Numbered from the stretch's first letter, positions 157 through 14,049 are shown. The stretch: DNA of 64,000 nucleotides from Akkermansiaceae bacterium (GCA_025363295.1 JANYEC010000004.1:1-64000), one strand, 5' to 3'. Notes: a model not told the origin generated them from the letters alone. Program-made: numbers and translations.

Positions 157-1371
157 TTATTTCCCGGGTTGATCAGGGGCGAGGCCAGTCTTGTCCCAGG
201 AGCGGCCTTGCGGGGTGGACATCAGGGATTCGGTCACGGTGAGTTCGCCACCTCCCTGGAGAGGGATTTGGCGGACAGTGTGACTTTTGCCGTAACTTCT
301 TGATCCGAACGTGGTGACCTTGCCCGGCAAACCCTCCTTCAGGGTGGCGATCAAGTATTCGGCGGCGCTGGCGGTGCGTCCGTCCTGGAGGATACGGATG
401 GATTCGGGGTCGACGAAAACCGGATTGCCGTCCTTGGGAGCCTGGACGCCGCCGAGGGTGGTGAATTTCCCGAGGGTCGTGCCTTCGGGGAAAAACAACG
501 AGGCGATCTTGAGTGCCTCTTCGCGGAGTCCCCCAGTATTTCCGCGGAGGTCGAGGGTGATGTTGGTTGGCTTGGGGTAGGCCTTGAGCTGCTGCTTAAG
601 GTCGGCGGCGCTGCCTTGGCTGAAACTCCGGATGCGAACCGCCACCCCGACCAATGATTTGGTGACAGCGACATCCGGGACGCGCTTATCGGTGCGTTGA
701 ATCGTGAACTCCTCGATCTTGCCTTGGGGTTGCCTGACCTTGACCTTCATCCCGGTGTTAGGCGGGCCGACGAAAGCAAGCCGCAGCGCCAGCAATGACT
801 TGCCGGTGGAGGGCCGGTCATCCACGGACATCAGCAGTGCCCCGGAGTTCACACCCGCCTTGTCGGCGGGGCCTCCATCAGTGGGAAAGCAGAGCACGCG
901 ACCGTCCGGCTGCTGCTCCAGGGTCATCTGGATTATGCCGGAGTTCTGCCGCAGGGCCTCGCGCATCTGGACGACGTCGGCGGCGGGGTTGTAGCTGCCG
1001 TAAATGTCGATCTTCGGAAGCAAGGCTTCCAGGGTTTGTTCGATCCTGGCAAATTTGCCGATCGAGGGATCCCGGGCAAGCATAGCGTCCGCAAGCTCCG
1101 GAAGGGATTCCGCAGAATCCGGTTTCAGTGACGAGAAACGGGGACCCGAGGTGGCTAGCAGAACCTCGCGTGCCTTCAGGTCGAGGGAATCCGGGTCGAG
1201 CGGATCGAGCGACTTCCCGCGGTAGCTGGTCAGGAAGTTCGCCCACAGGCGTTCGGCAGCCTCGCGGTCATTTTCGGCGGCTTCCTGCGCTGTCGCCACA
1301 GGAAGGGCGAGCAGCGCGTGGGTCGCGATCCCTAGCAGAAGCCTGAGGCAAGCGCCGACGGGCCGCATCAT
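157..1371 (-). CDS. S41-family C-terminal processing peptidase with PDZ domain
   Basis: A predicted exported serine protease of 404 aa, last gene of the minus-strand module. An N-terminal hydrophobic segment ending in an Ala-rich VATAQEA stretch looks like a signal peptide. Residues about 150-230 resemble a PDZ domain (GGPADKAGV, then LLMSVDDRP). The C-terminal half is the S41 fold: LDLRGNTGG at about 275, GRTASAAEYL with the expected nucleophilic Ser near 333, and SYGKS with the expected general-base Lys near 360. Known S41/CTP proteases cut substrates from their C-termini in the periplasm or envelope. The start ATG overlaps the stop of the upstream lipoprotein gene by 4 nt (ATGA), which indicates translational coupling. 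Inferred role: processing an envelope component of this module; the substrate is unknown. Confidence 0.85.
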   Translation of the reverse strand: MMRPVGACLRLLLGIATHALLALPVATAQEAAENDREAAERLWANFLTSYRGKSLDPLDPDSLDLKAREVLLATSGPRFSSLKPDSAESLPELADAMLARDPSIGKFARIEQTLEALLPKIDIYGSYNPAADVVQMREALRQNSGIIQMTLEQQPDGRVLCFPTDGGPADKAGVNSGALLMSVDDRPSTGKSLLALRLAFVGPPNTGMKVKVRQPQGKIEEFTIQRTDKRVPDVAVTKSLVGVAVRIRSFSQGSAADLKQQLKAYPKPTNITLDLRGNTGGLREEALKIASLFFPEGTTLGKFTTLGGVQAPKDGNPVFVDPESIRILQDGRTASAAEYLIATLKEGLPGKVTTFGSRSYGKSHTVRQIPLQGGGELTVTESLMSTPQGRSWDKTGLAPDQPGK

Positions 1372-1592
1372 TGCATTGCGTCGATCTGTCTCTGGGTCCG
1401 CGCTGACTGGCTTCGGGTGCGGTTAGTCTTGCCCTCGAGGTTGTCGAGCGTCGCCTGGCGTTCGTTGAGGCGGCGCTGGGCTTTGTTTTCGCTCCAGAAA
1501 ATACCTCCCTCGCGGGGATTGCCGGTGGTCTCGCAGCCGGTGACGGAAAGTGCGATCATGGCGATGACGAAAACGGATGGAAACGGTTTCAT
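1368..1592 (-). CDS. Small coiled-coil lipoprotein
   Basis: A 74-aa protein with a short hydrophobic N-terminus and a lipobox-like LSVTGC, so Cys20 would be lipidated. The mature part is charged and helical (RRLNERQATLDNLEGKTNRTRSQ), compatible with a short coiled coil. It sits between the glycine-zipper protein and the S41 protease and overlaps the protease start by 4 nt. No family was recognised. The signal peptide and lipobox are visible; envelope anchoring is inferred. Confidence 0.7.
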   Translation of the reverse strand: MKPFPSVFVIAMIALSVTGCETTGNPREGGIFWSENKAQRRLNERQATLDNLEGKTNRTRSQSARTQRQIDAMQ

Positions 1593-1625
1593 TTAATTGT
1601 GGGCGTTGAGGAAATAGAATGGAAG

Positions 1626-2273
1626 TTAGACATCGGTTTCATTTTGGAGGCTGGCCAGGCTTTTCTCGTTCTTGTTGATGGTGGAAACCTGGGTCTCGAT
1701 GCCGCTGGTGGTGGTCCGTAGCGATTTCAGGCTGGAACCGCCCCGGCCTCCGGCTTCCTGAATGGCACTGCGGTTGATCTGTGCTTCCTTGGCGAAGGTT
1801 GCAGATTCCTTTTGGGCGGTCGCCCGTTCGGTGCGGATCTCGCGGTTCAGGGATGCGAGCTTCTGTTTGTCCCCCGCAACCTTGGCCATTTGGACTTCCT
1901 TGCGCAAGCGGGCGAGCTGGTTGTCGAGGCGGTCGTTGTAGGCGGCGGCTTTCTTGCGCGTGCTTTCCGCCTGGACGATGCAGGCATCCAGCCAGTCCTC
2001 GGTATTGACATAATTTTTCTTTTTGTTAGCCACATGGGTTCCATAGGCAAGGCCCGCGAGAGAGCCGATGCCGGCACCGATGAGAGTGCTTTGAGTATTG
2101 CGGCCGATCACCTGGCCGAGGATGGCGCCTGCTCCGGCTCCGATGGCGGTGCCTTGAGCTTTGGTTACATCTTGGTCGGACATGTCCGCACACTGGGTGA
2201 GGCTGAAGGTGATGGCGGTAAAGATGGAAAGTTGCTTTCCGTAGCGGACACAAGTTTGGATGGGGCTGTTCAT
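1626..2273 (-). CDS. Glycine-zipper lipoprotein with coiled coil
   Basis: A 215-aa protein. A hydrophobic leader ends in a lipobox-like FSLTQC. Residues about 40-80 are a glycine-zipper pair (GTAIGAGAGAILGQVIG, GAGIGSLAGLAYG) of the kind seen in Gly-zipper and OmpA-like-associated lipoproteins, which insert in or line membranes. The rest is a long charged helix rich in Lys, Arg, Glu and Gln, predicted as coiled coil. It lies 33 nt upstream of the small lipoprotein gene and 94 nt downstream of the kinase gene. It could be an envelope scaffold or pore component of the module; that role is inference. Confidence 0.75.
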   Translation of the reverse strand: MNSPIQTCVRYGKQLSIFTAITFSLTQCADMSDQDVTKAQGTAIGAGAGAILGQVIGRNTQSTLIGAGIGSLAGLAYGTHVANKKKNYVNTEDWLDACIVQAESTRKKAAAYNDRLDNQLARLRKEVQMAKVAGDKQKLASLNREIRTERATAQKESATFAKEAQINRSAIQEAGGRGGSSLKSLRTTTSGIETQVSTINKNEKSLASLQNETDV

Positions 2274-2367
2274 AGGTACGATAATGGTTGGAACGTTATT
2301 GCAAGTTTCTGGAACCTAGGGCGTCTCACGTCAATTCCAAAATCCCCTCAGGCTAACAAATTTTATT

Positions 2368-5300
2368 TTATTCGGATGAACCCAGCGTGTTGTTTCCCAG
2401 AATGACCTCGCCAGCCTGCTCGACTTTCATTTGAGCTTCCAAAGGTCCGGGGAAAATCATATTTCCGGTGGCGCTGCCTGATGCTCCGTTCCCGAAAATA
2501 ACGGACCCCGAGTTGTTTTTGAAATCACATTTCGTGATGTCTCCCTTTCCTTCCATGATTGCAACGGCGAAGTCCACGTGGGAGATGAATTTTGTCTCCG
2601 TTGCCGTCAAGCTGCTGTCAGAACCCTTCACGAGGTAAACCCCCACGTTGCCGTTGGAACGGAACTCGCACCGGTCGATTTTCACCTTGCCTCCGGTCTC
2701 GATGTAGATTCCGTTTTCCTTGCTGCCATCGACTGTGGTGTCCGACATTTCCAGGCTGGCTTGGTTGATGACTCCGATTCCGAACTGGCGGTTAGATGAA
2801 ACCATGCACGAAGACTCGAGTCGGGCGGTGGTGCCGGAACCGTCGATATGGAGACCGACCTTTTGGTTCTCGTTGATTTGAGCGCCGCTTGCGACCAGTG
2901 CCGCCCCGTTGGCGATTTCCACGCCGTTGCGGCTGTTGGACGAGATGTTGGATCCGCTACCGAGGGTGATGCTTGTCTCCACGTTCAGGGCGGCGATCCC
3001 GGCCAAGCCGTTTTCCTGCAACTCGCTGAGGGAGATCTCCACCTTGGAACCACTGTTGGCGGTGATCCCGTAAGCGCGGTTCCTCCGGACCCGGCAGTTG
3101 GAAAAAACGGCGGAAGCCTTGTTGGAAAGCGAGATGCCGCTGCCCGTGGAGCGCTCGACCACGCAACCCTCAAAGGTGACCGCTGCGGAGTCGGTGATCA
3201 CGACTAGCGAAGGCGAGGATTCGATTTCAGTCTTCGCCTGGCTCTGGGTGTTCTTGATCTGGATGTTCCGCAGGGTCACTTGAATGGGGCCGCGTACGGT
3301 GAGCAGGCTGGATTCAACGCCACCGTCCTCCAGCACTGCGGCGGATTTGGAAATGAGGGAAATGGATTTGTTGATGACCAGTGCTTCCGCGTGTGTGCCG
3401 CCGGATATCTCAACGGCGCCGCCGTCCTGACAAAGCTCGATGGCCTTGGCGATGGTGTCCGCATCTCCCGGAACCCTGACGATGGCTTTGGAATCCACAG
3501 ACTTTGGAGGGGAAACGGGTGGTTTGATCGGCGGAGTGGGATCGCGAGTGATTTCAGGTTTATCATCGGCCTTTTCGGTTTGAGGCGGTTTGGCGGTTTC
3601 ATGCCCCTTTGGAATGAAATACCAGATAGCGGCGGCCCCCGCCAGCAGGAGAGCAGCTCCGAATGTTAGAAGGACGACCTTGTGATTGGGTCCCGAGGAC
3701 GAGGCGCGAGGTTTGGGCGGAACTACGATCTCCGGAACCGGCTGCGGTGACAGCGGAGGTGGTTGGATCAGCTGACCGCTTGCCATCGATTGCGCGGGAG
3801 TGGGGATGCTGATCGAGGGGTTGGGCCGCCAGCTGGAGCCGGTATGGGAAGTCAGCGAGGCTCCTCGGGTTAGATTTCCGCTGATGCTCGCGCCGGGAAT
3901 GCGTTCCTCATGGGCGAGCCCGCGGATCACATCGCGGCAGGTGCCGTCTGCGAGGGTGCCGGCGATGGCGGACGCCAGGAAGCGGTTGGAGCGCTCGGTC
4001 AGCTTGGGAATCGCCTGATAGGCGCGGGCGTTGACAAAGGCGGCGGGAGGCAGCGTTCTGCCACTGAGCAGTTGATAGATGCAGGAGGCGAAGCGGGCGG
4101 GAAGCCCGGCACCCATCGCGCCGCGCATGGTCCCTGCAGAATCGGCGGCCTCGTTACCGGCATCAAGGGTCGGCAGCGGCACGGCGAGTGAAAATGCGAG
4201 AGGCGGCCCGGCGCTCACGATCAGCATCGACGGATGGATTTCCAGAAACTCGAAACCAGCCAGCAGGATTCCGTCGAGCGCTTGGGCGATCAGTTCGAGG
4301 GCTGCGAGGATTTCCGCCGTCGAGGCGCTCTGTCCTTGCCTGACCCATGAGAGCGCGTCGTCGCCGGTTAGGGCGGGCCAAGCGACGGACCACCAGTCGC
4401 TGCCGCGCTCGAGGATGATGGGGGCAAGTCCGAGTTCCACCGCGTGCCGGGCGACGACGTCCGCCTGGTGGGTTAGAGTTTCCACAATCTCCGGCGCGAG
4501 ACAGGTGAATCGTGAGACGTCGTGGATCGTGCTCTCGCCGGTTCTGGTAGCCTTTACCGAAATACCATGGTCGATGTAAACTGGCTGTCCGGTTTCGATC
4601 CAGAGGACGGACCATAGCGTGTCCGGGTGATCCTGCCATTGGCTAGGCGCGGAAACCGTGGAACCGCCGCCGGACAGGATTGTGGATGCGTCCCACGCCA
4701 CCGGATGGTCCGGGTGATGAGGAAAACTGGATTTCACCGCCGCCTGCAATTCCCCCCCGTCGCGCGGTCGGCTGGCGGGTTCGACTGCCAGCATTGCTCC
4801 GAGGACGGTTTGCCAGTTGGCTGGCAACGGTGCCAGCAGGGACGAGTAACCGGAAGCCTCAAGGCGCTCGGAGATGACGTTGTTTACATCGCCATGGGAA
4901 AGGTGTTTCCCGGTCAGCAGCCAGAGAAAGGTGGCTCCTAACGAAAATACATCGGACGCAGGTTCCGCCTGACCGCGCAATTGCTCGGGAGCGGCGAAAT
5001 GCGGAGTGCCGATGACGTGGTCCGCCGCTTCGCCCCCGCTGGCGTCACCCGCGAGACCGAAGTCGATTAGCTTCACCGTTGCGAAGTCATTCTCGCGGGC
5101 GATGAGCAGGTTTGACGGTTTGATGTCGCGGTGGAGGATGCCTTTTTGATGGGCGTGCGCCAAGGCAGCGGCGGACTCGAAAAGCCATTGGATGCAGGTG
5201 CGGTAGTCAGGAGTTCCGGCCTTGCGGAATTCCTCAAGGCTGCCGCCCTCGCAGACTTCCATCACATAGTAAGGATGCTGCTGGGCACTCTCGCCGAAAT

Positions 5301-5556
5301 CCAGGATTCGGGCGATCTGTGGATGGGTGAGAGAAGCGGCGGAGCGTGCTTCGGATAGAAACGCGTCGCGGTCCTTTTGTAAAAGATTCTTGCGGCGGAT
5401 CAGCACCTTGACGGCGACCTCCGTGTGGAGGTGGATGTGTCTTCCGCGATAGGTGACACCGCCCGCTCCGGAGCCGAGAACGAGGGCCGTGCCGTCGGCG
5501 GCGGCCATGATCTCGTAATTTCCCAGTCTCTCGTTAGGTTTCACCATGGCTTCCAT
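2368..5556 (-). CDS. Membrane-anchored Ser/Thr protein kinase with C-terminal right-handed beta-helix
   Basis: A 1062-aa Hanks-type kinase. The glycine loop GSGAGGVTYRG is at about 28-38, the VAVK lysine near 50, the catalytic loop HRDIKPSN at about 142-149 and the metal-binding DFG in LIDFGLAG at about 165. A second lobe-like stretch (about 290-560) of unknown type follows. A Pro-rich linker precedes one transmembrane helix at about 628-650 (LLTFGAALLLAGAAAIWYF). Beyond it, repeats of about 23 residues (NNRNGVEIANGAALVASG type) from about 690 to 1050 form a right-handed parallel beta-helix like NosD or pectate-lyase folds. The kinase would be cytoplasmic and the helix extracytoplasmic, as in receptor kinases. 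The gene starts 10 nt after the stop of the FHA-ABC gene, so the pair is co-transcribed. FHA domains bind phosphothreonine, so the neighbour may be its substrate or partner. Confidence 0.9.
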   Translation of the reverse strand: MEAMVKPNERLGNYEIMAAADGTALVLGSGAGGVTYRGRHIHLHTEVAVKVLIRRKNLLQKDRDAFLSEARSAASLTHPQIARILDFGESAQQHPYYVMEVCEGGSLEEFRKAGTPDYRTCIQWLFESAAALAHAHQKGILHRDIKPSNLLIARENDFATVKLIDFGLAGDASGGEAADHVIGTPHFAAPEQLRGQAEPASDVFSLGATFLWLLTGKHLSHGDVNNVISERLEASGYSSLLAPLPANWQTVLGAMLAVEPASRPRDGGELQAAVKSSFPHHPDHPVAWDASTILSGGGSTVSAPSQWQDHPDTLWSVLWIETGQPVYIDHGISVKATRTGESTIHDVSRFTCLAPEIVETLTHQADVVARHAVELGLAPIILERGSDWWSVAWPALTGDDALSWVRQGQSASTAEILAALELIAQALDGILLAGFEFLEIHPSMLIVSAGPPLAFSLAVPLPTLDAGNEAADSAGTMRGAMGAGLPARFASCIYQLLSGRTLPPAAFVNARAYQAIPKLTERSNRFLASAIAGTLADGTCRDVIRGLAHEERIPGASISGNLTRGASLTSHTGSSWRPNPSISIPTPAQSMASGQLIQPPPLSPQPVPEIVVPPKPRASSSGPNHKVVLLTFGAALLLAGAAAIWYFIPKGHETAKPPQTEKADDKPEITRDPTPPIKPPVSPPKSVDSKAIVRVPGDADTIAKAIELCQDGGAVEISGGTHAEALVINKSISLISKSAAVLEDGGVESSLLTVRGPIQVTLRNIQIKNTQSQAKTEIESSPSLVVITDSAAVTFEGCVVERSTGSGISLSNKASAVFSNCRVRRNRAYGITANSGSKVEISLSELQENGLAGIAALNVETSITLGSGSNISSNSRNGVEIANGAALVASGAQINENQKVGLHIDGSGTTARLESSCMVSSNRQFGIGVINQASLEMSDTTVDGSKENGIYIETGGKVKIDRCEFRSNGNVGVYLVKGSDSSLTATETKFISHVDFAVAIMEGKGDITKCDFKNNSGSVIFGNGASGSATGNMIFPGPLEAQMKVEQAGEVILGNNTLGSSE

Positions 5557-5566
5557 TTTACGGCCG

Positions 5567-8431
5567 TCAGCGGACGCGCTCCTTGGCCAGTAGCCCGCCG
5601 ATGGTGAGAAGGTAGCAAGCTGCGGACCAGACGGACAAGGTTAGAAGTGCCTTCCATGCCGGGGTGAGCGTGCTGACTACCGTGCCCTTGAGATAGGCTA
5701 CATCGGCACGCCTTTTTACGGAGTCCCGAAACAGCGAGGTGAAGGTGCCGGCGACGGTGGTGAACTCCTGCTTGTGCTGGCCGCGCCGCGCGGGCGAGAC
5801 GAGCAGGTTCTGCCAGGCGCGATTGAAAGGGGAAATGCGGTCGTAGTCCTGGGTGACATCGCGCTTGCCGTCGCTCCACTCGATGGTTTCCTTGCTGCCG
5901 TCGCTGGTGAGGAAAACCGGTGTTTTGGTGCGGTTGGAAAGGAAGGGCGTGGCGCTGCCAAAGATATGGGAAACCTCGATGATGCGTTGCGACGCGAAAC
6001 TCGGAACAGCGGCGCAGAACACGCGGGCCGAGGGACTCATTTCTGGAAACGGAATGACGAACCCACCGAACAGGATCTGCGGAATCAGGATGAGCGGCAC
6101 CCACATGACCGATTGCGTGGGGCTGCGGACCAGCGAGGAAACCGTCAGGCCGAGCACCACGCCAATAATGCCTGATAGAAGGAACCCAAGGACGCGAAGT
6201 CCGATGGTGGAGAGTAGGATCTGTGAGACGGAGATGCCTTGGAAGGTTAGGAGCTTGCCGCTTTTGTCGCGGGCGCGCTCGCCGTTATGCAAGAGCAGGT
6301 CGCGCGGACCGCTTTCGGTCAGGTTCTGGCCGATGGTGAAGACGGATGCGATGAGGGTGAGGCGTTTGACAGCGCTTTCGCCGGGAGGCGACGGGGGGGG
6401 CGGCGGAGCGTCCGGAACGGGGCCGGAATCTGCAGTTTTGGGTGGGGGCATTTCCTCGTCACCCACCGCGTAAAAATCATCAGCGGCTGGGCCGGCGGGT
6501 ATCTCGATTCCGGCCTGGGCAGTCACGCGGCGGGTCAGGCGTTCAGCGAAATCCTTCGAGTTGAATGGCTCGGGATGCCACAGGTTGCCGAGGCCGGTGG
6601 TACAGACAATCAAGAAGAATGTCTGAGCGGCGGTTAGAAGCGAAAGGAAGGTGAGCTTGCTGAAATAGTAGGTGTTCAGCCCGAGGCCGCAGACTCGCTC
6701 GCGCTGGAGAATTTGGATCTCGCCGATGATCTGTTGGGCGGCGTTGCTGCAGCCGAACCACATGGCGGCGATGACCGTGATGAACGCGCGCATCCCGATG
6801 TCATCGCTGGCCCACGCGATGAGCACCGAGATGAGCACCGCCTGGGCTAACAGGAAAGCGATGTTGAGGGGATCCGCGATGAGGATCTTCCACTGGCGGT
6901 TGAACAGGACGCGCAGGGTCTTACAGGCGGGGACTTTCCGCGCGGCAGCGGATATCGGTGGCGGTGGCGGAGGTGCTCCCGTCGGCGGAGGGACTGCCTG
7001 ATAGTAGGGGGAGATTTGGAAAGCCTTCTCACGGTCAATGGCGGAGATGGCCGTGTCGTCGAGGGCGGTATAGATTTTTTCCAGCGGAGCCTCCAACTGG
7101 TCCTGCATGGAGGCTGTCTGGTCGCCGAGGAAATGGAGGCGGGCCTCGTCGCTGTTTCCAAAGAAAACCAGACGACCTTGCTGGATGAACAGCAGGCGGC
7201 TGAACAGGAATGCGTTGTGAAGCACGTGGGTGGTGCAGACCACGGTGATGCCGCTGAGCGCGAGACTTTGCAGCAGAATCATCAGCCGTTCCTCGGTGGC
7301 GGGATCGAGACCGGACGAAGGCTCGTCGAGAAACAGCACGGATGGATTGGACAGCAACTCGATGCCGATGCTGACCCGTTTCCGCTGGCCGCCGGAAAGC
7401 TGGGTGATGCGCTTTTCCTGATGCTCGTCGAGTCCTAACTGATGGATGATCCGTTGGATGCGCGCGCGTATGAGCGGCATCGGCAGATTGATGCGAAGGC
7501 GCCCGCTGAGCAGCAGCGCGTCCTTCACGCGGAGCTCCTTGTGGACGATATCGTCCTGCGGGACATAGCCAATGCCGAGCTTGCGCATACCGGCCTTGTC
7601 GGTGAGGGGCTGGCCGCTGATCAGAACCTCGCCCTTGGAGGCGGGGACCAGACCGCACAGCGCGTTGAGCAGGGTGGATTTGCCTTGGCCCGATCCGCCG
7701 AGGATGCCGACGAACTCGCCGGGTCTAACTTGCAGGCTGACCTGGTCGAGGATGGCCCGGTTTCCGGCGAGCCGGGTTAGATTTCTCGCGATGATTGAAC
7801 CGGCGTTGGCATTGTCCAGCCAGCGGAGGTTTTTCCCGTCGAACTCGAAGGTGTAGTGACCGATCTGGAGGCGATCCCCATAGACGAGGGTGGCCAGGGA
7901 AAACGCGTCACCATTGAGCGAACTGCCGAGGCGGCTGATATCCTCGATTATGTAGCTGTTCTTCGCGGGAGTGATCCTGACATGCTCTCCGGAAATGCTG
8001 TGATCTGCGGGGTCAAGATCGACCCGCAGCGGGCCGGGTTGGATTTCCTGAGACAGCCGACCCATCACCAGGCTGCCGGTCTTGGGCAAGCGGATGGTGG
8101 GATTAGGTGTCCCCTGAATCAGTGGCGGGTTGGCCCGCTGGGTGAAAAGGATCGTGACGCCGTTCACATGGATGGTCGTTCCACTTTCCAGCGGCACCGG
8201 ACCGGAACCGATAGACGAGCCGTTGATGGCGACGTAGGCGGATGGATTCAACTTCACCACCATCCATGATGCCATGGTCGGCTGATGGCGGAACTCGAGC
8301 ACGGATGGGGGAAATCCCGCACCCATCCGGATGGTGTCGTCAGCACCGCCGCCGAGTCTGACGTTCTCCCGGTCGAGCGGCACTTCGGTGGCTTGACCTT
8401 GGGAATCGCTAATAAGCAGGCGGGCGTCCAT
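5567..8431 (-). CDS. Double-FHA domain ABC transporter (ABCG-like ATPase-permease fusion)
   Basis: A 954-aa fusion. Residues 1-110 look like a degenerate FHA domain. Residues about 120-210 are a clearer FHA (MGRLSQEI, ISGEHVRI, SRLGSSLNG). The ATPase follows with Walker A GGSGQGKST near 244, signature LSGGQRKR near 344 and Walker B LFLDEPSSGLD near 364-374. A Pro-rich linker (TGAPPPPPPIS) leads to an ABC-2/ABCG-type membrane domain with hydrophobic segments from about 530, a second Pro-rich insert near 690, and a last helix at the C-terminus. ATPase-before-permease order matches ABCG half-transporters. FHA domains recognise phosphothreonine, and the next gene encodes a Ser/Thr kinase, so phospho-regulated export is a reasonable inference. 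The transported substrate is unknown. Confidence 0.88.
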   Translation of the reverse strand: MDARLLISDSQGQATEVPLDRENVRLGGGADDTIRMGAGFPPSVLEFRHQPTMASWMVVKLNPSAYVAINGSSIGSGPVPLESGTTIHVNGVTILFTQRANPPLIQGTPNPTIRLPKTGSLVMGRLSQEIQPGPLRVDLDPADHSISGEHVRITPAKNSYIIEDISRLGSSLNGDAFSLATLVYGDRLQIGHYTFEFDGKNLRWLDNANAGSIIARNLTRLAGNRAILDQVSLQVRPGEFVGILGGSGQGKSTLLNALCGLVPASKGEVLISGQPLTDKAGMRKLGIGYVPQDDIVHKELRVKDALLLSGRLRINLPMPLIRARIQRIIHQLGLDEHQEKRITQLSGGQRKRVSIGIELLSNPSVLFLDEPSSGLDPATEERLMILLQSLALSGITVVCTTHVLHNAFLFSRLLFIQQGRLVFFGNSDEARLHFLGDQTASMQDQLEAPLEKIYTALDDTAISAIDREKAFQISPYYQAVPPPTGAPPPPPPISAAARKVPACKTLRVLFNRQWKILIADPLNIAFLLAQAVLISVLIAWASDDIGMRAFITVIAAMWFGCSNAAQQIIGEIQILQRERVCGLGLNTYYFSKLTFLSLLTAAQTFFLIVCTTGLGNLWHPEPFNSKDFAERLTRRVTAQAGIEIPAGPAADDFYAVGDEEMPPPKTADSGPVPDAPPPPPSPPGESAVKRLTLIASVFTIGQNLTESGPRDLLLHNGERARDKSGKLLTFQGISVSQILLSTIGLRVLGFLLSGIIGVVLGLTVSSLVRSPTQSVMWVPLILIPQILFGGFVIPFPEMSPSARVFCAAVPSFASQRIIEVSHIFGSATPFLSNRTKTPVFLTSDGSKETIEWSDGKRDVTQDYDRISPFNRAWQNLLVSPARRGQHKQEFTTVAGTFTSLFRDSVKRRADVAYLKGTVVSTLTPAWKALLTLSVWSAACYLLTIGGLLAKERVR

Positions 8432-8446
8432 GTTAGGTGGGGAAAG

Positions 8447-9214
8447 TCACTCGAAGTCGATGATGACGTCGCGTTCGGCCGGCATGACTTTCCTGGGCAG
8501 GGCCTGCTTGGGCTGCGGTTGGGGTTGCGTCGTAGCCTGAGATACGGGTGGCTTGGCGTGGGGTGGCGCGGGCTTTTGGTCCTCGGGCCACTTGACCTCG
8601 ACGGTCCTGCTTGCTCCCATGACATCCGTGGGTTCGCTGGGTTCTTGGGGGTGCACTTGTTTCGGGGCGGGCGGAGCGACCGCTACTGGCGGAGCTTCAG
8701 CCGCCTTCTTGCCGAAACTTGCGACGATTTCCGCAGTGTCGGGCGTCTCCCATTTTCCGGAGCGATCAGCGAAAAGGGGGATCGCCATTTCCCCGGCCCG
8801 GCCATCCCTGCCAACAATCCTGAAGGAGACCTTCGAGATGATGGGTCGTGCGGGATCGGGACCTTCCACGGGAAAGATTGAAGTTCTGTCAAATCGGGCA
8901 CCGGGCAGGCCATCGGCGAGCCGTCCGCGAACGGTTTCAACAAAACCCAGATAGGTTCCGCGCGCCGCTTTGAGATCCGGTGTCCCGATTGAAGGATTGG
9001 TGGTGGTTTCGGGTGTCGAGTTTGCCTCGTCATGGAGTGCTGCAATCTGCGAGTCGCGGTCGCGGATCTCAGCTTCAAGCAGGTCAACCTTTTCGCGGAT
9101 GCCAGGATCTTCATCCCGTCCGCACGAGGTGAACCATCCCGACAACAATACCGGGAGAGCAAGACAGGCAAGTGTCGGGAGACGAGTCATCGCAGACAGC
9201 GGGCAGCGACCCAC
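8447..9214 (-). CDS. Coiled-coil lipoprotein, module member
   Basis: A 255-aa ORF. The start may be the internal Met at 9190 (MTRLPTLACLALP), which gives a tighter signal peptide ending in the lipobox-like WFTSC. A short coiled coil follows (VDLLEAEIRDRDSQIAALHDEA), then a beta-rich globular part of about 100 residues (TSIFPVEGPDPARPIISKVSF) and a Pro/Ala/Lys-rich tail ending DVIIDFE. No family was recognised. It is separated by 15 nt from the FHA-ABC gene, so it is probably in the same transcript and acts at the envelope next to the transporter. Confidence 0.7.
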   Translation of the reverse strand: MGRCPLSAMTRLPTLACLALPVLLSGWFTSCGRDEDPGIREKVDLLEAEIRDRDSQIAALHDEANSTPETTTNPSIGTPDLKAARGTYLGFVETVRGRLADGLPGARFDRTSIFPVEGPDPARPIISKVSFRIVGRDGRAGEMAIPLFADRSGKWETPDTAEIVASFGKKAAEAPPVAVAPPAPKQVHPQEPSEPTDVMGASRTVEVKWPEDQKPAPPHAKPPVSQATTQPQPQPKQALPRKVMPAERDVIIDFE

Positions 9215-9250
9215 CGGAACAGGTGTGAGAACCGGAGGGCCGCAACGGAT

Positions 9251-9460
9251 TCAGTAGGAATAGGTCGTTGGTTTCTCTACCGCCCGGAAGCCCTCTGCGG
9301 TTTCCACCGGCTTGGGCTTGGGTCTGTAAACTGTCTTTTTCGGAGCTTCCTTTTCCTTTACCGGTACATAGACGGGAACGTAGGTCGGATCCTGGCAGGA
9401 AACGAACGAGAGTCCGAGGAGGGTGACGGCTGCAGTGGCGATCAATTTGGTGGCTTTCAT
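9251..9460 (-). CDS. Short proline/lysine-rich lipoprotein
   Basis: A 69-aa protein. The N-terminal signal sequence ends in LSFVSC, a lipobox. The mature part is extended and repetitive (YVPVYVPVKEKEAPKK, YRPKPKPVE), resembling a wall- or membrane-spanning spacer. It lies inside the minus-strand module between the exported protein and the coiled-coil lipoprotein. No homologue is recalled; only export and lipidation are supported by the sequence. Confidence 0.65.
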   Translation of the reverse strand: MKATKLIATAAVTLLGLSFVSCQDPTYVPVYVPVKEKEAPKKTVYRPKPKPVETAEGFRAVEKPTTYSY

Positions 9461-9499
9461 GATATGCGATTGTGGGAGCTGTGATTTTCAGGTCAGGGA

Positions 9500-10033
9500 T
9501 TACTCGGTGGCAGCGGGGGTTGTCTGCTTGGGCACATCGGGACTTTCCACTAGGGAACCGTCGGGATTGGTGGGGGTGTAGCTTTCGCGCACCGCACCGC
9601 GGCGACCCACGAGTACCGAGTAGGCACCTAGACCTTGTGCTGACTTGAGGTGGAGATAGACCTGCACGGTGCCGTTGTAGGCTGAACGGAATTTCACTCC
9701 AGCGCGGCGGGCAGGGCGGCGGTCGTCAAGAATCAGGCTGCCAACCTCGTCATAAACGTAGATGTCGATGTCGAGGACCGCCTTGTCGATGCCGGCGAGA
9801 AACACGTAGTCGAGGCCCTTACTGACCGGGACAATGAAACGGATCATCGTGCCCGATGCACCAACGCCGTTGGTGTTTGTCGGCGCCATCGCGTAACCAC
9901 GCTGGGTGTAGTAAGTGGACATGCTGTAAGCGTCCTCCTCGGCTTCTGACGGGTCGGCGTGGACGTTTCCTGTCATGCAGGCGAATGCAGCGACGAGCGC
10001 TGCGGTGTGGATGGTGGAGCGGAACAAGTTCAT
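9500..10033 (-). CDS. Exported beta-sandwich protein (PPC-like)
   Basis: The start was moved from the ORF-track position to the Met at 10033, which begins a proper signal peptide (MNLFRSTIHTAALVAAFACM, cleavage near NVHADP). That gives 177 aa; the upstream extension is a shadow of the next gene. The mature protein alternates hydrophobic residues in a beta pattern: TMIRFIVPVSKGLDYVFLAG, then DIDIYVYDEVGSLILDD, then VQVYLHLKSAQGLGAYSVLVG. This resembles bacterial pre-peptidase C-terminal (PPC) beta-sandwich domains, which are usually appended to secreted enzymes; here it stands alone. It lies 32 nt after the preceding gene in the module. Confidence 0.65.
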   Translation of the reverse strand: MNLFRSTIHTAALVAAFACMTGNVHADPSEAEEDAYSMSTYYTQRGYAMAPTNTNGVGASGTMIRFIVPVSKGLDYVFLAGIDKAVLDIDIYVYDEVGSLILDDRRPARRAGVKFRSAYNGTVQVYLHLKSAQGLGAYSVLVGRRGAVRESYTPTNPDGSLVESPDVPKQTTPAATE

Positions 10034-10065
10034 GGTTTTCTTTGGTTTTGGGAGGGATTGAACGA

Positions 10066-10893
10066 CTATTTGGCTTTGAGAATTTCCTTCACACAGGCGG
10101 TCGCCAGCTTGTCGATTTGCTCGACCTGATCCTTGGGAATCTGTGCATCGAGGCCCACGTTGACGATCTTGTGAAGCTGGGGAAGGGTCTTGTCGATCAG
10201 CGCGACGGAAGGCATCTCGCGGGTTTTGGCGGGAAGCATCTCGCTCTTTTTGATCAGGGCGGCGACCAGCAACGGTTCGCGAAGGATGTTCGAGCTTGCG
10301 TCTGAATAATGGGCGACTATCAACTCGCTCGAGTAGCGACTGCCTTGGATCCAGCCGGAAATCATCAGCAGGGCGGAACGCTGGTCCTTTGGATTTTCCT
10401 CCAGCTTTTGCATGATGTCTTGTTGCAGGAATCCAAGCTCGCGATAGACGTCGAGCCATTTGCCCTCGTTGGCGAGCGAGCGGACCCGGCGGGCGCGTGA
10501 CAGATCGTTGTCGCTGACTTTGAGTTTATTCGCGAGTTTCTCAATGTCCGATGCCGCCTTGCCCAGGAGTTCCGCGTCTTTCGCCTGAACCGCCATGATG
10601 CCATCCGCGATACGAAGTCCGAGAACCTGGGGGATGAGGACGTCCGTGTCCGTGTAGTCATCCGGATTGATGTCCACCGCCACCGCGTTGAAAACCCCGT
10701 TCCAGTCGATTTTCCGGGTCTTCACCAACAGCGTGAGCGCGATGAACTTATCAAGCGGAGTGGGCATCGCGACCCCCATGTCGATGGCCTTGCTCGGGTC
10801 GATGGGAGGATTCAGCGCATCCGCCGCCGTGAGGCTAGCCGTGAGACCCGTGAAAACGCCTGCAAGCACTGTTCGTCTGTAGATTTTATTCAT
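10066..10893 (-). CDS. Exported helical protein of unknown function, first gene of the module
   Basis: The likely start is the Met at 10893 (MNKIYRRTVLAGVF), 275 aa, because it opens a signal peptide ending near SLTAADA; the longer ORF adds an uncharged leader with no export signal. An AGAGA-like stretch lies about 10 nt upstream. The mature part is alpha-helical, with alternating charged and Leu-rich segments (SDIEKLANKLKVSDNDLSRARRVRSLANEG) and no Cys-rich, TPR or enzyme motif. It is the promoter-proximal gene of the minus-strand run ending at 157. Function not recognised. Confidence 0.6.
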   Translation of the reverse strand: MNKIYRRTVLAGVFTGLTASLTAADALNPPIDPSKAIDMGVAMPTPLDKFIALTLLVKTRKIDWNGVFNAVAVDINPDDYTDTDVLIPQVLGLRIADGIMAVQAKDAELLGKAASDIEKLANKLKVSDNDLSRARRVRSLANEGKWLDVYRELGFLQQDIMQKLEENPKDQRSALLMISGWIQGSRYSSELIVAHYSDASSNILREPLLVAALIKKSEMLPAKTREMPSVALIDKTLPQLHKIVNVGLDAQIPKDQVEQIDKLATACVKEILKAK

Positions 10894-10968: not shown

Positions 10969-11499
10969 TCACGCGTCTTCAACGCGGGCGAGGATCCAGA
11001 GGAGGTCGGAAAGGCGGTTAAAAAACAGCCTGACTAACACCGGAACGGGTTCGCCGGATTCGTGGAGGGAAAGCACATGACGCTCAGCGCGGCGGGCGAC
11101 GGAGCGGGAATAATCGAGACTTGCACGGGCTAACGAACCCTCGGCGCCGGGCCTTGCCCAGCCAGTGAATCGGATGCCCCGTTTTTCGTAATCATGCGCA
11201 GTGGTGGTGACCCATTCGAGATCTTCAGGGCGGAGATAAGCGTAATTTTTCTCCAAATACTTTTCCTCGTCCTCAGGTAGAGTGGCGAGTTGCCCCATCA
11301 GGCCGACGAGGCGCGCCTGAATGCCGTCGATGATTGTGACGATTTCTGTATGGGTTTCCGCTGCACGGGCGAGACCGAGGGCGGCGTTGAGTTCGTCCAC
11401 GGAGCCAAGCGCTTCGACGCGGAGGGAGGTTTTAGCGATGCGTTTGGAAAACATCAGGTCTGTTTCGCCCGAGTCCCCGCGACCTGTAATAATGCTCAT
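10969..11499 (-). CDS. pduO: Cob(I)alamin adenosyltransferase, PduO type
   Basis: A 176-aa enzyme that transfers the 5'-deoxyadenosyl group of ATP to cob(I)alamin, making adenosylcobalamin. It shows the PduO/MMAB signature: N-terminal TGRGDSGETDLMFSKR for ATP binding, VDELNAALG, RRAERHVLSL and NRLSDLLWILAR near the end. The length is normal for the family. It stands alone, with no cobalamin-biosynthesis neighbours, and diverges from queE at 11567. Its product would serve B12-dependent enzymes encoded elsewhere. Confidence 0.9.
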   Translation of the reverse strand: MSIITGRGDSGETDLMFSKRIAKTSLRVEALGSVDELNAALGLARAAETHTEIVTIIDGIQARLVGLMGQLATLPEDEEKYLEKNYAYLRPEDLEWVTTTAHDYEKRGIRFTGWARPGAEGSLARASLDYSRSVARRAERHVLSLHESGEPVPVLVRLFFNRLSDLLWILARVEDA

Positions 11500-13563: not shown

Positions 13564-14049
13564 TTACCAGTCGCCGCCGCCACCTTTATAGCCGCCGCCA
13601 CCGCCGCCGCCTTTATAACCGCCGCCGCCACCGCCGCCGCGACGATCACCGCCGCCCCCGCCGTAGCCACCACCACCACCGCCTCGGCGTTCACCGCCGC
13701 CGCCGCCGTAGCCGCCACCACCACCGCCACCGCCGCCACGACGTTCTCCGCCGTAACCGCCGCCACCACCACCGCCGCCGCTTGGACGGAAGCCGCCGGG
13801 CTTGGCTTCTTTAGGCTCAGAGGCATTCACGCGAAGCGCGCGGCCCTGATAGTCGTAACCATTGAGTGCTTCGATCGAAGCGTTCAGTTGGCTCTGGTCG
13901 CCGAGAGTCACGAAAGCAAATCCTTTAGATCTGCCGGTTTCGCGGTCGGTGATGATTTTGACCCGTTCAACAGGTCCATAAGCGGCGAAGAGGCCAGTAA
14001 CGTCTTCTTCAGTAGCAGTGTAGGGCAAGTTGCCCACGTAGATGTCCAT
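13564..14049 (-). CDS. Glycine-rich RRM RNA-binding protein
   Basis: A 161-aa protein. Residues 1-80 form an RNA-recognition motif: RNP2 is IYVGNLPY and RNP1 is KGFAFVTL. The remainder is a low-complexity tail of Gly runs broken by ERR, DRR, YGG and YKG, like cold-inducible glycine-rich RNA-binding proteins of plants and cyanobacterial Rbp proteins. Known relatives bind single-stranded RNA and are cold- or stress-induced, acting as RNA chaperones. The tail may drive phase separation. Codon use in the tail is dominated by GGC/GGT. A long nested inverted repeat sits 50-117 nt upstream of the start and may control expression. Confidence 0.93.
   Translation of the reverse strand: MDIYVGNLPYTATEEDVTGLFAAYGPVERVKIITDRETGRSKGFAFVTLGDQSQLNASIEALNGYDYQGRALRVNASEPKEAKPGGFRPSGGGGGGGGYGGERRGGGGGGGGGYGGGGGERRGGGGGGYGGGGGDRRGGGGGGGYKGGGGGGGYKGGGGDW

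Follow-up and report, generated by a model that had tools for sequence, protein, structure and literature searches.

A conserved nine-gene module of Verrucomicrobiota joins a transmembrane Ser/Thr kinase and an FHA-ABC exporter to a set of candidate envelope partners

Introduction

To our knowledge, the best-studied kinase-controlled FHA-ABC exporter is a single Mycobacterium pair, for which we know of no outside partners. This pair, PknF-Rv1747 of Mycobacterium tuberculosis, is encoded by a two-gene operon and consists of a membrane Ser/Thr kinase and an FHA-FHA-ABC exporter whose function depends on phosphorylation (PMC3908365); Rv1747 is a probable exporter of an envelope component (PMC3908365, PMC5549992), and both of its FHA domains are needed for contact with PknF (PMC3908365). 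Related parts are found in the control of envelope synthesis, where the phosphorylated tail of the pseudokinase MviN recruits the FHA protein FhaA (PMC12599244), and in type VI secretion, where the TagQRST-PpkA-Fha1 pathway comprises a lipoprotein, a periplasmic factor, an ABC complex, a kinase and an FHA component (PMC5532429). Here, we describe nine genes located on the minus strand, at positions 157-10893, of a 64,000-nucleotide stretch of DNA from an Akkermansiaceae bacterium (GCA_025363295.1, JANYEC010000004.1:1-64000; hereafter the window), which encode an FHA-ABC exporter, a transmembrane Ser/Thr kinase, several secreted or lipid-anchored proteins and an S41 protease.

An earlier note on this DNA knew of no named system with such a set; however, PknF-Rv1747 (PMC3908365) already pairs a kinase with an FHA-FHA-ABC exporter. 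The window locus resembles this pair in the adjacency of the kinase gene (here across a gap of 10 nucleotides) and in its single-chain half-transporter with the order FHA-FHA-ATPase-membrane domain. Unlike in the mycobacterial pair, the binding residues are present in the second FHA domain (FHA2) only, the kinase bears a probable pseudokinase-like domain and a beta-helix, and secreted and lipid-anchored partners are added to what is, for Rv1747-pknF, an operon of two genes. The module appears to work like the PknF-Rv1747 pair, yet we do not file it as the same system because phosphothreonine binding by both domains would involve the Arg and the SxxH, which are absent from the first FHA domain (FHA1). 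In the case of MviN-FhaA, the analogy is that a pseudokinase may serve as an FHA docking site, although there the kinase, the pseudokinase and the FHA protein are three different chains and a flippase is the partner, whereas here the kinase and the probable pseudokinase-like domain share one chain and FHA is carried by the exporter. TagQRST-PpkA-Fha1 has the same kinds of parts, but the window locus has FHA and ABC fused in one protein and no FtsX-like permease among the nine products. Literature searches for a kinase/FHA-ABC system in either Verrucomicrobiota or Planctomycetes gave no paper.

Results

The nine genes are a real, conserved module. All nine open reading frames are reproduced by lists of open reading frames and by translation, and the gaps between them, counted from the S41 gene upward, are -4, 33, 94, 10, 15, 60, 39, and 32 nucleotides, which bears out the minus-strand grouping proposed in the earlier note. 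The same is true of its statement that most products carry a signal peptide or lipobox, a signal peptide or lipobox-like Cys being visible by eye in seven of the nine. The proposal had also been staked beforehand on the genes being conserved together in relatives, and this was read by tblastn and profile scans of the neighbourhoods around homologues; the set was found to recur across genera and families, including divergent gene orders and split loci. The secreted proteins sp275 and sp177, the lipoprotein lp255, the FHA-ABC exporter and usually the kinase occur together in G082, G039, G006, G087, L045, L046, and L065, which belong to the same family or are labelled Akkermansiaceae, and also in L044, which is titled Spartobacteria, and in families beyond these (G319, G337, and G302). 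In G586 and G526, eight of the nine families lie inside 10-11 kb and are arranged divergently. The module of G490 and G495 is split between two loci ~0.9 Mb apart on one contig of ~8 Mb (for G490 this distance is counted round the circle, being 7.4 Mb if linear), one with FHA-ABC and the accessory block described below and the other with sp275-sp177-lp255-kinase. Because the same set recurs in relatives, the grouping of these genes exceeds chance.

An association is also observed at the level of whole genomes. Among 387 genomes of the order, the exporter membrane domain is present in 30 and sp275 in 31; both are found in the same 29, with one genome having the exporter only, two having sp275 only and 355 having neither (Fisher p ~3e-40, ignoring relatedness). 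The cut-offs, at least 200 bits for the exporter membrane domain and at least 130 bits for sp275, were placed after the score lists had been seen to drop from 212 to 184 bits and from 132 to 119 bits, respectively, and both query profiles include proteins from some of the 387 genomes. The co-occurrence holds also in G490 and G495, despite their distant loci. The exporter-only genome (G639) has a C-terminal fragment of 559 amino acids, without FHA domains or Walker A, and in both sp275-only genomes the gene lies near a contig end, where G087 shows a truncated FHA-ABC gene. In a sample of the phylum that partly overlaps that of the order, the exporter and sp275 are found in the same seven genomes. 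The distribution of the module is patchy, the exporter being present in 15 of 50 genera of the order. As a separate observation, in the G639 stretch (L182, G639:C4:491000-510900, from 9035 onward) the other module genes are missing, which looks like a joint decay of the exporter and its partners.

The exporter (5567-8431) has the domain order FHA1, FHA2, ABC ATPase, and ABC-2 membrane domain. Pfam recognizes ABC_tran (1.4e-31), ABC2_membrane and a single FHA match at residues 137-191 (1.4e-7), and Walker A, LSGGQ, and Walker B are all present in the ATPase. Judged by its residues, FHA2 is phospho-competent: all 38 homologues keep the phosphothreonine-binding Arg, Ser, and Asn, and 32 of them keep the His. 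A phmmer search of the PDB with FHA2 alone gave no match. FHA1, by the same kind of reading, is a degenerate FHA domain; it has no Pfam match, it lacks the phosphothreonine-binding Arg and the SxxH in 12 of 12 homologues, and it is FHA-like by profile only (11 of the 12 listed PDB chains are FHA domains, with E between 0.013 and 0.17; Prob 30-55% against FHA2 by hhalign). The transporter with two FHA domains of the earlier note therefore stands with respect to FHA2, with its Pfam match and binding residues, but not with respect to FHA1 as a phospho-reader.

The kinase (2368-5556) matches Pkinase (1.7e-42, with the kinase domain at residues 26-264) and Beta_helix (5.2e-26) in Pfam, and keeps the catalytic Lys, HRD, and DFG. 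One strong transmembrane segment is located at 627-645, and the beta-helix is C-terminal of it; by the usual topology, the beta-helix would lie outside the membrane, with the kinase and pseudokinase-like domains N-terminal of the segment. The region between the kinase domain and the transmembrane segment is probably pseudokinase-like: once relatives are included it aligns with the kinase domain over ~230 columns (hhalign Prob 94-96%, being 0.1-1.8% for unrelated controls), and in the window protein it has neither the HRD nor the catalytic Asn. A Pro/Ser/Thr-rich tail after this domain is present in relatives. A beta-helix forms the ectodomain in the window, G082, G039, G302, G586, G526, G564, G490, and G500; Sel1 repeats take its place in one G006 kinase, in G087, and in L045, and in the other members the ectodomain is not recognised. 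In the window, Pfam, the transmembrane segment and the catalytic residues agree with the membrane kinase and external beta-helix of the earlier note, and the kinase looks active, but the beta-helix is not a universal trait of the module. Eight kinase domains above the Pfam cut-off are encoded in the window's genome, and because of this number a chance adjacency of a kinase to the FHA protein is unlikely. For G010, the idea that kinase and FHA functions had been lost together was considered and dropped, since its kinase reads VAK, HCD, and DFS and so is not plainly dead.

Regarding the secreted and lipid-anchored products, sp275 (10066-10893) is predicted to be all-alpha (predicted local distance difference test, pLDDT, of 78), with no significant fold match in a Foldseek search of the PDB, and sp177 (9500-10033), conserved beside sp275, is modelled as a beta-sandwich (pLDDT 76) with PDB matches to jelly-roll, GOLD, and PPC-type domains. 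The coiled-coil lipoprotein lp255 (8447-9190, most likely starting at ATG 9190 rather than GTG 9214) is a candidate exporter partner, its homologues adjoining FHA-ABC or sp275, and the tiny lipoprotein lp69 (9251-9460) has homologues in G039, G087, L046, L065, and others. Four of the nine products have Pfam matches; besides lp69 and lp74 (the latter from the accessory block), the three other products gave no match in Pfam, and none of these five matched in NCBIfam. Conserved C-terminal ends are observed in lp255 (of the [VI]-I-D-[FW] type, encoded at 8447-8480, minus strand) and in lp69 (AE[SD]FRA, 9251-9300, minus strand), and these short motifs may reflect a common binding partner.

Distant sp275 copies are found in many Verrucomicrobiota, many of them accompanied by sp177, and 13 of their neighbourhoods were read. 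In three, a different ABC-2 exporter follows immediately downstream of the sp275-sp177 pair (L113, 9241-13587; L116, 8109-12967; L213, 9345-13690), that of L116 having an N-terminal TerB domain in place of the FHA of the window exporter. This arrangement lends support, though not proof, to the idea that the pair acts as a partner of an exporter. Moreover, the pair is near a separate ABC ATPase gene in L110 and L111, and beside apparent PhoH and 7TM-HD (PgpH-like) genes in L114, L115, and L117 (Pfam-confirmed for L117 only), a second neighbourhood that recurs and that has no ABC gene. Outside the phylum, FHA-ABC genes with kinase genes in their vicinity are found in Bacteroidota, Cyanobacteria, Acidobacteriota, and Hydrogenedentota (L049, L058, L059, L055, L064, and L066). 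These exporters resemble that of the window in their FHA domain or domains, ATPase, ABC-2 domain and at least one kinase gene within ~10 kb, but differ from it in that their neighbourhoods yielded no homologue of sp275, sp177, or lp255. Within the phylum, a distant FHA-ABC gene is located at 8040-10718 of L150 (G285:C7:325000-344000) with neighbours read by eye as TssF, TssG, and ClpV, and a link between FHA-ABC proteins and the type VI secretion system (T6SS) in the phylum is possible.

The protease, the Gly-zipper protein and lp74 appear to form a detachable accessory block. The S41 C-terminal processing protease (157-1371) has a signal peptide and matches Peptidase_S41 (2.9e-22; the prc subfamily model of NCBIfam scores under its cut-off), and it aligns with solved C-terminal processing proteases, keeping the Ser-Lys pair of the active site. 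The lipoprotein lp74 (1368-1592), of 74 amino acids and with a VTGC lipobox in its translation, is conserved next to the Gly-zipper and S41 genes, and the Gly-zipper lipoprotein-like protein (1626-2273) has a coiled region and matches Gly-zipper_YMGG (3.8e-9). S41 homologues adjoin the module in G082, G039, G302, and others, and the block is carried by G082, G039, G302, G586, G526, G564, G558, G490, G495, G502, and G500, adjoining the sp275 half in the last of these. An additional Gly-zipper lipoprotein gene, missing in the window, is observed between lp74 and S41 in G082 (L103, 5246-5845) and G039 (L156, 751-1350).

The contig starts at window base 1, so that the cluster is visible only up to the S41 gene on that side and genes past it are out of view. 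On the other side, cobO (10969-11499) is located upstream of the sp275 gene at a spacing of 75 nucleotides. A promoter and terminator scan gave a number of sites no higher than in shuffled sequence. Further along, the product of 13564-14049 on the minus strand has the look of an RNA-binding (RRM) protein and bears a long tail rich in glycine.

Discussion

On balance, we slightly favour the reading that the module is an envelope export system controlled by the transmembrane Ser/Thr kinase. An envelope ligand or state would alter the activity of the kinase, and FHA2 of the ABCG-like exporter would bind phosphothreonine, most likely in the pseudokinase domain of the kinase or in its Pro/Ser/Thr-rich juxtamembrane linker. 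This docking would switch or position the exporter ATPase and gate transport, and the FHA-ABC half-transporter would dimerise and export its substrate, with sp275, sp177, and lp255 as dedicated outside partners; the S41 protease of the accessory block may process a partner or the cargo. Phosphorylation, docking, substrate, and protease target are elements that we infer. The reading is favoured because the set recurs in several families, including divergent gene orders, because exporter and sp275 co-occur, even at ~0.9 Mb apart, and because the FHA2 binding residues and the kinase catalytic residues are kept. Also, a probable pseudokinase-like domain lies next to the kinase, PknF-Rv1747 and MviN serve as precedents, and distant sp275-sp177 pairs lie upstream of other ABC-2 exporters (L113, L116, and L213).

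Several points weigh against kinase-controlled export. When the window protein and its three nearest relatives are taken alone, the alignment of the pseudokinase region is weak (Prob 29.5%), a conserved acceptor Thr was found neither in the juxtamembrane linkers nor between FHA1 and FHA2, some of the sp275-sp177 pairs lie away from any ABC gene, and the substrate and transport direction of the FHA-ABC protein are again what we infer. An unlikely alternative would be that the ABC protein is mainly a transducer, with lipoproteins, secreted proteins, and ABC protein reading envelope stress and activating the kinase, and other proteins being phosphorylated, as in TagQRST-PpkA-Fha1. The same part kinds in that pathway (PMC5532429) and the distant FHA-ABC gene of G285 beside apparent T6SS genes (L150) agree with this, but a search of the window's genome (94% complete) for VipB gave no match, and the locus is not assigned to type VI secretion; moreover, the ABC protein carries FHA in its own chain, which makes the exporter the obvious phospho-reader.

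The 94-nucleotide gap between the kinase and Gly-zipper genes (2274-2367) could instead separate two units that are neighbours by chance, an exporter system (sp275, sp177, lipoproteins, FHA-ABC, and kinase) and an unrelated envelope-maintenance block (Gly-zipper, lp74, and S41). Although this would also fit the several carriers in which the block was not seen (such as L044, L046, and G319, some of these stretches being short), the block, within other gene orders, adjoins FHA-ABC in G302, G490, G495, and G502 and both halves of the module in G586, G526, and G564, and we consider a chance neighbourhood improbable. An anti-phage defence system of kinase and ATPase is far less probable still: the kinase domain matches the generic defence kinases PD-T4-6 and MAD6 and the ATPase matches MAD3, but these matches span common kinase and ATPase domains only, the six other scanned proteins match nothing, and most products have export signals.

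Kinase-controlled export by an FHA-ABC protein is of a kind already known, and it is the envelope partner set that is new. More tentatively, the module could be a Verrucomicrobiota-specific, phospho-controlled trans-envelope export machine, with a kinase/pseudokinase receptor, an FHA-ABC motor and the new families sp275, sp177, lp255, and lp69 outside, in which sp275-sp177 would serve several ABC-2 exporters of the phylum as a general pair of partners. The gene set conserved across Verrucomicrobiota families names probable outside partners of a kinase-controlled FHA-ABC exporter. Protein families that had been unannotated gain a shared context, so that the phospho-gating of the exporter and the roles played by sp275 and sp177 can be put to a direct test.

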